A DNA stretch of 64,000 nt from DHVE2 group archaeon (GTDB lineage Archaea; Thermoplasmatota; Thermoplasmata; Thermoplasmatales; Aciduliprofundaceae), in assembly GCA_026993785.1 (NCBI GenBank), contig JALWRZ010000003.1, forward strand, positions 1 through 64,000. The letters are read 5' to 3'. Of the stretch, positions 2,732 through 13,162 are shown piece by piece. Position 1 is the first letter of the stretch, and each line of letters starts with the position of its first letter. The notes under the pieces are model-generated. The model searched no databases. It saw nothing but the letters and a program-made list of their open reading frames with translations, and had not been told where the DNA came from. A program made the translations under genes and the position numbers.

Positions 2732-3373
2732 ATGGTAGTGATAGGAGAAAAATTTCCGGAAGTGGAGGTAAATACGACGCATGGAAGAATGAAGCTGCCT
2801 GACCACTTCGCCGGTAAGTGGTTCGTCTTGTTCTCGCATCCAGCGGATTTTACGCCGGTCTGCACCACAGAGTTCTATGGAATGCAGATCCGCCTTAACA
2901 AGTTCAAAGAGCTGGGCGCGGAGGTAATAGGACTTAGCGTGGACCAGGTATTCTCGCATCTCAAATGGATGGAATGGATAAAGGATAACCTGGGTGTGGA
3001 AATAGAGTTCCCTGTGATAGCCGATGACCGTGGCGACCTTGCTGAGAAGCTGGGCATGATACCAAGCGGCTCTACGCAGACGGCAAGGGCTGTGTTCATA
3101 GTGGATCCCAAAGGTACAATAAGAGCAATAGTGTACTATCCAGCGGAAGTAGGTCGTGACTGGGATGAGATACTCCGCGCCCTAAAGGCATTGCAGGTGA
3201 GCGATAAGAACGGCGTGGCGCTTCCGCACAAGTGGCCCAACAATGAACTGATAAAAGATCGCGTAATCGTTCCACCTGCTGGAAGCGTTGAGGCCATAAA
3301 AGACAGAGAGGAGAGGAAAAAGAAGGGCGAGATCGAGTGCTACGACTGGTGGCTCTGCCACAAATCACTCTGA
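2732..3373 (+). CDS. Peroxiredoxin, Prx6/archaeal type
   Basis: A 213-residue peroxiredoxin. The peroxidatic Cys44 lies in [13 protein letters not shown]. Two C-terminal cysteines (Cys203 and Cys209, in CYDWWLC) match the layout of the archaeal thioredoxin peroxidases related to Aeropyrum pernix TPx. It would reduce hydrogen and alkyl peroxides using a thioredoxin-like donor. GGAGG lies 9 nt before the ATG. It is separated from HdeD copy 1 by 66 nt, so it may have its own promoter, and a T-rich tract follows the stop. Confidence 0.97.
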
Positions 3374-3380
3374 CACCCAC

Positions 3381-3400
3381 CTTTTCTTTTTTTATTTTTG
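3381..3400 (+). terminator. T-rich terminator after peroxiredoxin
   Basis: A pyrimidine tract with runs of 4, 7 and 5 T begins 8 nt after the peroxiredoxin stop and precedes the next TATA-like box. Archaeal RNA polymerase terminates at such T-runs without a required hairpin. This is inferred from sequence only. Confidence 0.5.
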
Positions 3401-3403
3401 AAT

Positions 3404-3414
3404 ATTTTTAAATA
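3404..3414 (+). promoter_or_regulatory. TATA-like box of the GDPD gene
   Basis: ATTTTTAAATA is centred about 27 nt before the ATG at 3437. That spacing fits a leaderless archaeal transcript, and no Shine-Dalgarno sequence precedes this start. Confidence 0.6.
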
Positions 3415-3436
3415 GCGGTGATGCATTATTTCTCCG

Positions 3437-4171
3437 ATGCTTATCCTCGGTCACAGGGGCTACTCCGCAAGGTATCCTCCTAATACCCTCAAGGCCTTTT
3501 TAATGGCTATAAAATATGGAGCAGATGGCGTGGAACTGGATGTTTGGCGTACTGCCGACGGAAAAATAATAATATCCCACGATGGAAATTTGAAGGATAC
3601 CGCTGGCGTAGATGTTGATGTGAAAAAAAGCACATATAATGAGTTGAAGAAATACGATGTTCAGGGAGAACCTTTGCCTCTCTTGGAGGAGGTTTATGAG
3701 GCTCTTCCGGAGGACGCCATAATAAATGTAGAGATAAAAGATATAGATGCAGTAAAAGGCGCACTGGATATCGTGAAAAGATATGATGCGATGGACAGAA
3801 CCCTATTCTCTTCCTTCAATATGAACGCCCTACGAAGGTTAAGGGAGGAATCAAAGGATGCATGGATAGGCATACTCATGAGCGATTTAAACAAGCTGCT
3901 TACAGCCCCTCGATGGATTTATTCTCTTCGAGCGCAATACCTCAATCTCCCCCATCTTCTTGCCCGTATGCCCGGCAAGAAACTTAGCAGAGCGCTCATT
4001 CGTTTCTATCGCCTTTTTGGAGTAAGAATTGCCATATGGACACCCAACACCTTGGAGGAGCTCAACCCTTTTAAGGGATTATGTGAAATGGTAATCACCG
4101 ATGAAGTGGAGCTTATGGTAAAGCATAGAAACGCCGCGATAAAAGGAGGTGCAGGGTTTGTCCAAGCTTAG
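3437..4171 (+). CDS. Glycerophosphodiester phosphodiesterase family protein
   Basis: A 244-residue GDPD-fold enzyme that would hydrolyse glycerophosphodiesters to glycerol phosphate and an alcohol. The N-terminus has LGHRGYS (catalytic His-Arg), GVELDVW (metal-binding Glu and Asp) and IISHDGN (second catalytic His). INVEIKD and later VITDEVE complete the TIM-barrel pattern. There is no signal peptide, so it is cytosolic. Transcription is probably leaderless from the box at 3404. Its 3' end overlaps the next HdeD-like gene. In an archaeon with ether lipids the physiological substrate is uncertain. Confidence 0.92.
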   Translation: MLILGHRGYSARYPPNTLKAFLMAIKYGADGVELDVWRTADGKIIISHDGNLKDTAGVDVDVKKSTYNELKKYDVQGEPLPLLEEVYEALPEDAIINVEIKDIDAVKGALDIVKRYDAMDRTLFSSFNMNALRRLREESKDAWIGILMSDLNKLLTAPRWIYSLRAQYLNLPHLLARMPGKKLSRALIRFYRLFGVRIAIWTPNTLEELNPFKGLCEMVITDEVELMVKHRNAAIKGGAGFVQA

Positions 4172-4709
4172 TTACAGGATTGAAGAGCGCATAAACTCTC
4201 ATCATATTGGTGGCATAATTCTCCTGATAATAGGAATCTTTGCCATAATTTTCCCCTACCTCTTTTCTCGGGCAATAATATATCTTGTAGGCATAGCCCT
4301 GCTGCTGGCCGGGCTATCCCAGGGCTTTATCTATTTCACCCATCCGGAAGGTAGGGGAGCGCTACTTCTCAAATCTCTCATTCTTATTTCCCTAGCGCTG
4401 GTCTCTTTTTTCTCCCCCGTTCTTGGATTAAAGATTCTCACCGCTGTGCTCATGCTTTTCTTCTTCTTTGCAGCTATCACCAACTTCATGCTTGCTAGAA
4501 GTATAAAAACGCAGAAGGGCACTGGTATGGCGATTCTTGTGGGCATACTCTCCCTTTTTCTGGATCTTCTCCTTCTCCTTGGTTGGGCGGAGACTACGCA
4601 GTTTTTTATTGGATTGTTTCTTGGAGTCCTATTTATTGTGGACGGTGCCCTATTTCTGATAGTGGGTGAAGAAGAGAGAATGGGAGTTAAAGACAAAGGA
4701 TTAAAATAA
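4158..4709 (+). CDS. HdeD family (DUF308) membrane protein, copy 2
   Basis: A 183-residue multi-span membrane protein. Paired segments such as IILLIIGIFAIIFPYLF and GILSLFLDLLLLLGW mirror copy 1 at 2135. The ORF track starts at a GTG (4149) inside the ribosome-binding site. The TTG at 4158, 8 nt after GGAGG, fits the spacing used by neighbours. It overlaps the GDPD gene by 14 nt and precedes the EncFtn-like gene. Function is not established. The duplication inside one cluster suggests dimerising or stress-specific paralogues. Confidence 0.82.
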   Translation: MSKLSYRIEERINSHHIGGIILLIIGIFAIIFPYLFSRAIIYLVGIALLLAGLSQGFIYFTHPEGRGALLLKSLILISLALVSFFSPVLGLKILTAVLMLFFFFAAITNFMLARSIKTQKGTGMAILVGILSLFLDLLLLLGWAETTQFFIGLFLGVLFIVDGALFLIVGEEERMGVKDKGLK

Positions 4710-4741
4710 TGGTAAGGCATTAAGAAAGGGAGGTGAATGAT

Positions 4742-5035
4742 ATGCTTTCCAAAATACCCTTTGATATAGAGAAACTTAAAAAATTGGGCAAAGAGGAGCC
4801 CGATGTGGAATTGATAAGAATTGGAATAATAGCAGAGCTGGACGCCATAAATCTCTACGAGCAGCTTGCAGCTCTTGCCAAAAGCGATCTCGTCAAGAAG
4901 GTCTTTTTGGATATAGCTAAAGAAGAAAAGGAGCACTTTGGTGAGTTCTTAGAGCTCCTAAAGGAATTTGATGAAGAGATTAATATGGCTATGGAAGAAG
5001 GTGCCAGTGAAGTTGATGAAATGAGAGAAAGTTAA
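4742..5035 (+). CDS. Encapsulated-ferritin (EncFtn)-like two-helix protein
   Basis: A 97-residue protein. IAELDAINLYEQLA and AKEEKEHFGEFLELL give Glu32, Tyr39, Glu62 and His65, the same numbering as the ferroxidase residues of the encapsulated ferritin family. It also resembles the ferritin-like domain fused in front of some archaeal encapsulin shells. The family forms annular decamers that oxidise Fe(II). The ATG at 4742 lies 8 nt after GGAGG; the ORF-track GTG at 4733 is inside that site. No encapsulin shell gene is present in the window and the acidic C-terminus shows no obvious loading peptide. Confidence 0.8.
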   Translation: MLSKIPFDIEKLKKLGKEEPDVELIRIGIIAELDAINLYEQLAALAKSDLVKKVFLDIAKEEKEHFGEFLELLKEFDEEINMAMEEGASEVDEMRES

Positions 5036-5048
5036 AGGAGGCGAAAGA

Positions 5049-5561
5049 ATGGAAATGAAAGACTATGACCTTAAGGACCTCATTCTTATAGGCATAAAAA
5101 GCGAAATTGAAGCGGGCAAGGTGTATAGGAGAACTGCAGCGCAGGCAAGAAACCCTTTTCTTAAAACGAAGCTTACGGCACTTGCTGAGGAGGAAGATAG
5201 ACATCGTGAAATTCTGGAGAAGCTTTTTAATAGTCTTTATCCCGGGGAAGATATGGTTCTGCCAGAGAATCCTGAGTATCTCCCCGAGTTCCCTGAGATA
5301 AAGATATTCGCGGAGCTAAACGGGGTTACGGATGTTAGAAAAATAATCGAGCAGGCTATGAAAGCTGAGCTAGCGGCGAAGAAATACTATGAGGATATTG
5401 CGGCCCTTGTAGATGATGAGAAGATAAAAAAGCTTATGCTTTATATGGCAAAGATAGAGGAAGGTCATTACCACATCCTGCAGAGTGAATACAAGGAAAT
5501 CGAGGAATTTGAGAGCATAATGAAAGACGAGGATTACATGCAATTCGATGCGAGATTCTGA
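5049..5561 (+). CDS. Rubrerythrin-like ferritin family protein (no rubredoxin domain)
   Basis: A 170-residue ferritin-superfamily diiron protein. Helical pairs carry GIKSEIEAGKVYR with AEEEDRHREIL, and AMKAELAAKKYYED with AKIEEGHYHIL, giving two Glu and ExxH half-sites. There are no CxxC rubredoxin motifs, so it is an erythrin-type protein that could act as a peroxidase or iron oxidase. GGAGG lies 7 nt before the ATG, 14 nt after the EncFtn-like stop, so the two are co-transcribed. It closes the iron/oxidant cluster and a T-tract follows. Confidence 0.88.
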   Translation: MEMKDYDLKDLILIGIKSEIEAGKVYRRTAAQARNPFLKTKLTALAEEEDRHREILEKLFNSLYPGEDMVLPENPEYLPEFPEIKIFAELNGVTDVRKIIEQAMKAELAAKKYYEDIAALVDDEKIKKLMLYMAKIEEGHYHILQSEYKEIEEFESIMKDEDYMQFDARF

Positions 5562-9505: not shown

Positions 9506-10879
9506 TCACTTTCTCTTTTTAAAGTGGTAAATTACCGCCGCCGATACAAGCAATACTGCCGCTATTCCTATAGTGTAATACAGCCACAAATTTGTTGAAT
9601 TTTCTTTGCTTTCATTCACATAACCTTTTATTGCATATAAAATTCCATTTGTATCTCCAGCATATATCGTGCCTCCAATATAGATGGTGCCATTCTTATC
9701 TATCACCGGGTTTGTATAGCCACCAAGTACACCTTCAAGCCCTTCCATATGGAATTTTATATCACCATTTGGAGATACAGCATATATAAATCCACTATTA
9801 TTTTTTACAAATCCTCCAGAGATATAGACACTACCATCACCCCCAATGGTTCTAAAAAATGAAAGAGAAGGCCAATTCGGATATTCGCAGGTCATCAGGG
9901 TTACTCTCCATTTGATCCTGCCTGTGTTCATATCTAAAGAATACAACACAATATTGTCTTTATTGTCCTTAAAATGCTCTGATAGAAAATACAAACTCCT
10001 TCTTTCATCATCAATCACTGGATCATGTCCGCCTTTGGAATATTTCCATTTTATGCTACCATCTGGATTGACTCGGTAAAGAGTGCCGTTTTCATTAGCC
10101 ACATACACATTTCCATACTTATCAATTGCAGGTATGCTCGCCCACCATGTTCTGCCTATTTCCACTTTCCATCTTATATTTCCAGAGGGACTCAAAGAGT
10201 AAAGATAATTTCCAGAACATAGAAATATATTGCCATTGTTATCTATTGAGGGAATTGTGGTAGGATGGATTTTTCTCTCCCATATAATTTTGCCACTGGT
10301 AGAGATTGCATAAAGGCTCTCTCCATACGATGATATATAAATCCTATTCCTATACAGCACAGGGTCTCCCAAATCTGCAAAGCTTTTATTTAGTGTTATA
10401 TTCCATAACATATCCCCGTTTGAAGAATATGCAATTATTTTTCTGGGTAAAGGTTGCATATGCGGAAAAGGTGTAGCAAATGCAGAAACTTCATAGATTG
10501 TTCCATTTTCATCTACCGCAGGTGAATGTCCAACAGTATCTCCTTCAATTACCACTTTTCTTTTTAAAGAACCATTAGGATGTAACATATATAGCACCGT
10601 AGAACCCGAGGTTCTGAGGGTGAAATAAATTTCATTGTTTTTGTTAACTACAATATATCTAAGGAATCCGCTATCTTCAGTTTTGTATTTCCATAACACC
10701 TTATACTCGGTAGGAACATTTCCAAACGGAGTTTTACCTGTATGTCTGGCATCATGGAGAAATTGAGGCCAAGATACTGCTTCTCCTTGTGCAGAATATG
10801 AATCACTATGCATTATAGGAAAAAAAAGCAGTGTAATAAATACAAATAATATAACACTCATTAAAAATCTTCTTCTCAT
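9506..10879 (-). CDS. Secreted PQQ-like beta-propeller protein, membrane anchored
   Basis: A 457-residue protein. An N-terminal signal segment (LMSVILFVFITLLFFPI) precedes repeated blades of the form DENGTIY, DKYGNVYVANENGTLY and NGDIKFH. WPQFLHDARHTGKTP opens the propeller, as in PQQ-enzyme-like repeat proteins. A C-terminal span (IGIAAVLLVSAAVIYHF) and a basic tail anchor it, so the propeller faces outside. No PQQ-dehydrogenase catalytic residues could be assigned. It starts 4 nt after the clostripain 3' ORF, so it belongs to a secreted-protein operon and may be a scaffold or binding protein. Confidence 0.82.
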   Translation of the reverse strand: MRRRFLMSVILFVFITLLFFPIMHSDSYSAQGEAVSWPQFLHDARHTGKTPFGNVPTEYKVLWKYKTEDSGFLRYIVVNKNNEIYFTLRTSGSTVLYMLHPNGSLKRKVVIEGDTVGHSPAVDENGTIYEVSAFATPFPHMQPLPRKIIAYSSNGDMLWNITLNKSFADLGDPVLYRNRIYISSYGESLYAISTSGKIIWERKIHPTTIPSIDNNGNIFLCSGNYLYSLSPSGNIRWKVEIGRTWWASIPAIDKYGNVYVANENGTLYRVNPDGSIKWKYSKGGHDPVIDDERRSLYFLSEHFKDNKDNIVLYSLDMNTGRIKWRVTLMTCEYPNWPSLSFFRTIGGDGSVYISGGFVKNNSGFIYAVSPNGDIKFHMEGLEGVLGGYTNPVIDKNGTIYIGGTIYAGDTNGILYAIKGYVNESKENSTNLWLYYTIGIAAVLLVSAAVIYHFKKRK

Positions 10880-10883
10880 TTCT

Positions 10884-11564
10884 TCACCCCTGACTTGGAA
10901 ATAATGCTTTTAAAAAGTTATCCCATTCAGTATATTGGGCAAAGTCCGTGGCTCTATAAGTAGCGGATGTGCCCCAAGTTGAATTGTAGTACCATCTCCT
11001 ATCATCTGGCAGGAATATAGAAATTCCGTGGTAATCACCATTATTATGTTTCTCTTGCTCTACCACTTGTTCTATCGCATTCATCACATCACGTGCTGCC
11101 TCCCCTACCTTGCTATTTGAACCAAAACGATTTATCAGCAACTTGGAAAAGCTATACAGGTCCCTGTAGGAGTGGTTAAAAAACTCTCCGTTTCTTATAG
11201 GAACATTCATATGCTGTGTTACTGTAATTATATCCTTAATTTCATTTCCGTGACCTTCGTTCACTAAATTAATTAGTTCTTGAGCAAGGTTATTTATTGC
11301 AGGTATAAGTGTGGATATGGTTCTACCTACCCAGAGACTGGAAATAGTATGATTTCCATTATTAATTGGTTTGTAATTATTGATGATCTCTTGACTAACA
11401 TCTTCTACGTGCAATTCTACTCCTCGGGCCGGATAGTTTGCTGCCAAATGGTTAAAAAGACTGGAGTATTCCTCTGCATCCTCCCAGCTCGTTTCTTCGC
11501 TACCAACAATCATATCCGCATATCCCCGTAACTGATAAATTACCTCGCTCATCTGCATAAGCAA
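10884..11564 (-). CDS. Clostripain-like (C11) peptidase, 3' part after a frame break
   Basis: 226 residues that continue the C11 peptidase domain of the upstream ORF in another frame. The start LMQMSEVIYQLRGYADMIVG and the following GSEE are the segment that directly follows the catalytic DAC motif in clostripains. The ORF-track start is a TTG inside the overlap and is probably not a true start. The tail (DYHGISIFLPDD and YTEWDNFLKALF) is family-like and intact. A one-base deletion, or a -1 frameshift at TGCTTATG, separates it from the N-terminal part. Confidence 0.75.
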   Translation of the reverse strand: MLMQMSEVIYQLRGYADMIVGSEETSWEDAEEYSSLFNHLAANYPARGVELHVEDVSQEIINNYKPINNGNHTISSLWVGRTISTLIPAINNLAQELINLVNEGHGNEIKDIITVTQHMNVPIRNGEFFNHSYRDLYSFSKLLINRFGSNSKVGEAARDVMNAIEQVVEQEKHNNGDYHGISIFLPDDRRWYYNSTWGTSATYRATDFAQYTEWDNFLKALFPSQG

Positions 11565-13162
11565 GCATCAAACCACACTAGGTTTATATGGGTTTTCATA
11601 TCCCCAAACGCCCTTTTGAGCTCATTCATATCTGTATAATTGTCACCACTTACACTATCATCCCATAATAAGCCATCCCAGCCGCCACCATGATCCATTA
11701 TTATTAGCGCTCTTCTATTCGGTTGCCAGTATTTACTAGCTGCCCAGTTTACAAAATCTGAAAGTGTACGTGGCTCGCACATTGCCAGATCTCCCCATGA
11801 GTCAACTTTAACTTTTTCCCATTGCCAGGTGGCAGTGTTAAATCTTATCTCATATCTTCCACTATCACCCCATTCTTTCCCATCGTACTCTATCACAATG
11901 TGCATGACCCTGTTTATCCTCTCACCATCAGATGTTAGACCCGATAAGCCCTGGAATACTTTGTCTACCACATCACTCATATACTTATAAAGACTGTTAT
12001 CTGCATCCATATAGAGCATGAATAGCCAATTATGGAACTCATCGTTATCGCTTATACCATTCTCATCTGAGTCCCATGTATAAGCATAGGTCCCATACGT
12101 GTAGATTTCCTCAGAATCATTTAGTCCATCATCATCGGTATCACTATCCTCAGGATCCGTGCCGTGATCATACTCCGCCTTGTCATCCACACCATCGTTA
12201 TCCGTATCCTTGTAATGAGGATCAGAGTATACCTTTATATGATGCCATGTGGTTCCAGATGTGCACACCCAGATATACCATCCCGCCTCTTCTGTGGAGT
12301 CGCTCAACCCATCTCCATCTGAATCTGGATCGCTACCTCCACCTCCGGAATCCCATGCCATGAGGCCGTAAGCATCAACAACCCTGCTCTCTTCACTCTT
12401 TAGCATCTTCCCGTTGCTCTCATCCTCCACTATCTCCATATTAACCCTATCTTCAACATCAAATTTCAAGGTTTTGTATCTCAGCTTCTCCCTTTCCCAG
12501 TTCGAACCGAATTCTTTCACCCCATTCTTCCACGCAACCACTATATCTTGCCCATCCTCGAATTCCATCTTCCCCTGTATTGTGCCATTATATATCACCC
12601 TCCTTGCATGCCCTTCCTTAAACGGCGCTCTCGTCTCTCCCGTGCCATTGTCTATCACCTCAAACCAGTTCGTCGCAATGCCTTCATATCTCCACACAAC
12701 CCTATGCTCCACACTTTTATTGAAATAGAGGAGCAAAAGAGGATACAAAGGCGCTCCTTCTCCCACCTTTTTTCTCTGATAGTATTCTAAAAATCCGCGC
12801 ACAGCAATCTTACCTGTATGCGCGAATCCTATGGCTACGGTGTGCCAGCCTCCATGATTTTGCACCTCTATAAACTTCTCTTCAAATTCTATCTCTCTCC
12901 ACTCTTTTCCTTCTTTTATCTCTATCACCGGATACGCTTTCTCTACCAGCGTTTCTCCATCCTTCGCATTTTTTATAGTTGCATAATCCTCATTTATCTC
13001 CACCATTATCCGCAGATTATTGAACACATTGCCCTTGAAAAATCCATGCATCTTTTTCTCTTCCACCCCGCTTGCCATCCCACCCATACTGCTCAAAACT
13101 AGTAGCATTATTATACCTGTTATTATTACTCCTCTAAGCATATTAGCCACCGATTCATACAT
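11549..13162 (-). CDS. Clostripain-like (C11) secreted peptidase, 5' part ending at the catalytic Cys
   Basis: A 537-residue ORF. An N-terminal signal/anchor (GVIITGIIMLLVLSSM) is followed by a beta-rich domain. Thrombospondin type 3-like calcium repeats lie at about 285-375 (DPDSDGDGLSDS, DTDNDGVDDKAE, DSDTDDDGLNDSEE). The C11 domain then has MLYMDADNSL and the catalytic His in IIMDHGGGWDG. The frame ends LVWFDACLCR, three codons after the catalytic Cys. The rest of the domain is in the overlapping ORF at 10884-11564. Family knowledge says C11 enzymes are Arg/Lys-specific secreted cysteine peptidases. The gene may be a pseudogene, a sequencing error or recoded. Confidence 0.8.
   Translation of the reverse strand: MYESVANMLRGVIITGIIMLLVLSSMGGMASGVEEKKMHGFFKGNVFNNLRIMVEINEDYATIKNAKDGETLVEKAYPVIEIKEGKEWREIEFEEKFIEVQNHGGWHTVAIGFAHTGKIAVRGFLEYYQRKKVGEGAPLYPLLLLYFNKSVEHRVVWRYEGIATNWFEVIDNGTGETRAPFKEGHARRVIYNGTIQGKMEFEDGQDIVVAWKNGVKEFGSNWEREKLRYKTLKFDVEDRVNMEIVEDESNGKMLKSEESRVVDAYGLMAWDSGGGGSDPDSDGDGLSDSTEEAGWYIWVCTSGTTWHHIKVYSDPHYKDTDNDGVDDKAEYDHGTDPEDSDTDDDGLNDSEEIYTYGTYAYTWDSDENGISDNDEFHNWLFMLYMDADNSLYKYMSDVVDKVFQGLSGLTSDGERINRVMHIVIEYDGKEWGDSGRYEIRFNTATWQWEKVKVDSWGDLAMCEPRTLSDFVNWAASKYWQPNRRALIIMDHGGGWDGLLWDDSVSGDNYTDMNELKRAFGDMKTHINLVWFDACLCR

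Follow-up and report, generated by a model that had tools for sequence, protein, structure and literature searches.

A frame break directly after the catalytic cysteine codon of a secreted clostripain-like protease gene in a DHVE2 group archaeon

Peptidase family C11 (clostripain; PF03415; PDB 9CIP, 6N9J, 3UWS and 4YEC) is the described family with which the two overlapping reading frames studied here share both parts of the peptidase domain, the order of the catalytic His and Cys, the S1 Asp in the motif FDAC and the EVIYQLR-type helix past the Cys; unlike the family, the present gene is archaeal, carries an extra N-terminal domain and TSP3 repeats, and is broken right after the Cys. Two overlapping frames in a -1 relation are likewise known from fucA1, the alpha-L-fucosidase gene of Saccharolobus solfataricus, for which an A-rich slippery heptamer and a product have been demonstrated (PMC8211752), whereas the present gene has neither. 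For archaeal -1 frameshifting, a slippery heptamer together with a downstream structure has been described (PMC8211752). A further likeness is to the singletons of the GeneTack survey, which are also frame transitions supported by homology that have no conserved partner or motif; for Antonov et al., such unclustered frameshifts probably stem from sequencing errors or from recent indels, with a leaning towards errors for part of them (PMC3711429).

The window, i.e. the whole stretch of 64,000 nucleotides that was analysed, lies on contig C3 of a genome of 1.66 Mb in 14 contigs (completeness 99.84%), and its archaeal gene content includes MptE-like and EMG1/UPF0179 proteins. The features of the protease locus are as follows.

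12561..12814, minus strand: 254 nt in the N-terminal domain, identical to the paralogue on contig C14 of the same genome (G000:C14), likely a gene-conversion tract
12032..12334, minus strand: Asp-rich TSP3-like calcium-binding repeats (DPDSDGDGLSDS..., DTDNDGVDD..., DSDTDDDGLND...), read in translation
11549..13162, minus strand: ORF1, 537 aa, with signal peptide, N-terminal domain, TSP3/calcium repeats and the beginning of the C11 domain, including His491 and Cys534
11690..11692, minus strand: codon of catalytic His491 (MDHGGGW), placed by homology to C11 peptidases (PMC4850289) and alignment
11561..11563, minus strand: codon of catalytic Cys534 (FDAC), read in the sequence
11549..11570, minus strand: frame-change stretch of 22 nt, from the last stop of the -1 frame to the ORF1 stop
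11549-11551, minus strand: ORF1 stop codon
10884..11564, minus strand, -1 frame: ORF2, the rest of the C11 domain; 226 aa when counted from the listed TTG and 225 aa when counted from 11561
9506..10879, minus strand: intact PQQ-type beta-propeller gene that encodes 457 aa, including a signal peptide and a membrane helix at the C-terminus

The sequence-only reading had placed a frame break at the catalytic Cys of a secreted clostripain-like protease, and both the break and the description of the protein were borne out. ORF1 ends in ...VWFDACLCR and a stop codon three codons past Cys534, while ORF2 continues in the -1 frame as LMQMSEVIYQ... and runs unbroken down to its own stop, 4 nt ahead of the start of the propeller gene. 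Signal peptide, calcium repeats and catalytic His are all present in ORF1, in which PF03415 was matched; the TSP3-like repeats gave an E-value of 0.0024 against PF18884, under the curated cut-off of that profile. ORF2 has no signal peptide and matches the clostripain structure 9CIP.

The PF03415 profile is covered from position 2 to 147 by ORF1 (E 1e-12) and from 146 to 357 by ORF2 (E 4e-15 to 5.7e-15), so that each half exceeds the curated cut-off alone and the whole domain needs both frames. Because the two matches are complementary, the arrangement is not a product of chance. Upstream of the junction the -1 frame holds 55 stops, the last at 11570; it is thus non-coding there, and the frame change is confined to 22 nt. 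The gene possesses the His-Cys dyad and the Asp two residues before the Cys (MDHGGGW, FDAC) by which C11 peptidases are recognised, and what it lacks is the single continuous reading frame of the family; for the intact relative these residues were aligned with 6N9J. Relative to intact homologues it carries one disabling lesion. A search of either half for additional stops or frame breaks returned none, which agrees with the earlier description of the halves as otherwise intact and fails to show the many lesions of a dead gene that the same reading had named as its refutation; relaxed selection is not seen either, the dN/dS of the C-terminal half being 0.24.

Comparison with relatives, which the sequence-only reading had suggested, separates this locus from the rest of its family. 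PF03415 is present in 17 of the 18 genomes of the same archaeal family, and in the search of these 18 genomes only the source genome showed complementary half-matches at one place; all other loci with the active-site motif read DAC, one residue, Met in a single frame. Among these loci are the closest C11 relatives, G013:C39 (DACFMQM) and G017:C167 (DACMMQM). The latter, like the window gene, has TSP3 repeats and a PQQ propeller gene directly after it; unlike the window gene, its C11 frame is open over 678 aa, and the C-terminal halves are just 44% identical. Across 300 genomes drawn from the class, nearly all of the matches listed lay in long open frames and one had an in-frame stop. The split is therefore a singleton. 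A search of genome contigs for close relatives of ORF2 retrieved only one distant elusimicrobial stretch. The phosphoesterase gene adjoining the protease occurs in 18/18 family genomes, mostly at high identity, and in the hits seen the protease does not stand beside it, which leaves strict synteny of no use for defining the orthologous locus.

Codon comparison of ORF2 gave a dN/dS of 0.24 against the G013 copy and of 0.23 against the G017 copy, for which synonymous sites are near saturation. These values point to purifying selection on the C-terminal half and imply selection that was active until recently; the frame would accordingly have been whole through most of the history of the gene, or would still be whole in the organism. 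A single lesion combined with a C-terminal dN/dS of 0.24 is what either a young pseudogene or a sequence error would show.

We hold it somewhat probable that a real and recent one-base indel just past the catalytic Cys codon truncates this secreted C11 protease. The break is unique among the readable loci of the family, and selection on the C-terminal half is preserved; in addition, C11 remnants beside propeller genes in G011, G013, G014 and G009 suggest that loss of the protease is common in the family, so that the genomic context appears to favour real decay. What speaks against a real indel is that it would be the sole lesion of an otherwise clean gene, which an error in one assembled base explains equally well. 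Such an error is the chief competing explanation, under which the gene is intact in the organism and yields a normal secreted C11 protease; we take this possibility seriously while stopping short of calling it probable. It would account for one lesion in a clean gene with a dN/dS of 0.24 and for two complete C11 halves, and homology-supported singletons are often sequencing errors (PMC3711429). Against it, no homopolymer longer than 3 occurs at the site, and genome completeness is high (99.84%). A scan of about 50 other proteins of the window, informative for those with a family match (a few had none), found no comparable break, and when frame breaks were sampled genome-wide through the ABC ATPase family, 34/34 domains above threshold were unbroken. 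Intact window genes and ABC domains argue for good base accuracy, which is compatible with one error. Of the three options offered by the sequence-only reading, recent break and sequence error thus both fit, while the third, recoding, found no shared break, slippery site or stimulatory fold.

Under recoding, ORF1 and ORF2 would be joined by programmed -1 ribosomal frameshifting at a fixed rate, and this would set the amount of active protease, as in fucA1. The -1 direction and the short overlap would suit it, and -1 frameshifting is established for one archaeal cellular gene (PMC8211752), but the X-XXY-YYZ heptamer is absent from the 22-nt overlap. At each usable codon in the overlap, slipping into the -1 frame would leave 0-1 of 3 bases matched; TTT at the overlap edge re-pairs at 2 of 3, but the -1 frame there meets a stop directly. 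The next 95 nt of RNA fold like their shuffles (z-score -0.43 for pseudoknot-free folds), and the break is found in no relative. With the break unshared, no slippery site and no stimulatory fold, recoding is unsupported, and we regard it as highly unlikely. Still more doubtful, to the point of being barely credible, is a truly split, translationally coupled protease of two subunits, in which ORF2 would be a chain of its own started through ATGA, after the manner of the self-cleaved two-chain C11 enzymes. ORF2 does hold ATG codons, at 11558 and at 11552, and the second of these shares bases with the ORF1 stop (ATGA); processing of PmC11 and clostripain takes place at Lys147/Arg190 (PMC4850289). 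Yet this natural cleavage lies elsewhere than immediately past the catalytic Cys, ORF1 would be exported while ORF2 has no signal peptide, and the same split occurs in no relative. It is likewise very improbable that the broken frame is an OFF state that recombination with other copies could reverse, with this gene as the complete copy in a recombining family of C11-tail-plus-propeller cassettes through which the cell would vary both the protease that it secretes and the propeller partner at its surface. Rather than a concealed regulatory device, the break seems to be a commonplace recent mutation or an error in the sequence.

Under the preferred reading, that of a recently acquired real indel right after the catalytic Cys, translation of ORF1 would yield an exported, truncated protein with signal, N-terminal domain, calcium repeats and the His-Cys pair. 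Since the peptidase domain would lack its final ~225 residues, this product is probably inactive, and any product of ORF2, having no signal, would remain in the cytoplasm. The gene would be a recently formed pseudogene that has not had the time to gather further lesions, at a type of locus whose C11 part has decayed repeatedly in related genomes. The host genome may tolerate the loss of one protease, given the C14 paralogue and a second C11 protein on contig C8, whose open frame of 1289 aa is intact in the listed frame. If real, the lesion would be one more case of an archaeal lineage losing one of its several secreted proteases; recoding, if shown, would be an unusual instance of -1 frameshifting in a cellular gene of archaea, but the sequence gives no support for it.

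The C14 paralogue (L057, gene 3368-5365, minus strand) has the same N-terminal domain and repeats, joined to a catalytic part that is weakly C13/caspase-like. The 254 identical nt (window 12561-12814) stand amid ~83% identity over the part shared by these two secreted protease paralogues on different contigs, which makes a recent gene conversion between them likely. The codon comparison of ORF1 with this paralogue is distorted by the identical tract and the unrelated catalytic part. The same N-terminal domain and TSP3 repeats are combined with varied caspase/legumain-like catalytic parts at L057:3368-5365 (minus), L053:3639-5519, L063:1-1188 and L065:45-1631, the calls resting on a C13 match in L053, a weak one in L057 and inspection by eye in L063 and L065; a C13 family search of the source genome itself gave nothing above threshold. 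As a side reading, N-terminal domain and TSP3 repeats may serve as a secretion module to which interchangeable peptidase domains are attached.

More interesting than the break are the arrays of remnants and propeller genes around C11 genes in relatives, which may merit separate study. A C11 gene followed by a propeller gene is also found in G017 and G013, and five family genomes have arrays in which short C-terminal C11 pieces, some of them intact small ORFs, adjoin PQQ propeller genes (loci L109:548-2304, L067:2-1640, L053:6712-10449, L055:3355-4902 and L110:3295-3534).

G011:C87: two C11 C-terminal pieces before propeller genes
G014:C135: two C11 C-terminal pieces, one at the contig end
G013:C39: one C11 piece of 269 aa and one short piece
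G017:C167: two C11 pieces past the complete gene, one with an in-frame stop
G009: one orphan C11 piece after a propeller gene

For one tail compared between G011 and G014 the dN/dS is 0.41, and for its propeller 0.24; a different tail, compared between G011 and G013, stands at 1.33, a value based on few changes. The simplest reading is tandem duplication of a unit of C11 3-prime end plus propeller, after which the protease part eroded, and such erosion would also fit protease loss in the source genome; the C11 tails may also have a role or recombine among themselves. Some assemblies of relatives are fragmented, so that single junctions (e.g. L054) may be chimeras: at L054:1-336 (G013:C49) a C11 piece is joined out of frame to the terminal part of a propeller gene, either a recombination product or an assembly chimera. 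The source genome holds a remnant of a propeller C-terminus at L111:2117-2266 (G000:C1) with one in-frame TAG. At L108:4158-4718 in another genus (G014:C2), a propeller fragment is 83% identical to the window propeller (dN/dS 0.17), far closer than the other family copies, and could indicate a possible propeller transfer between genera.
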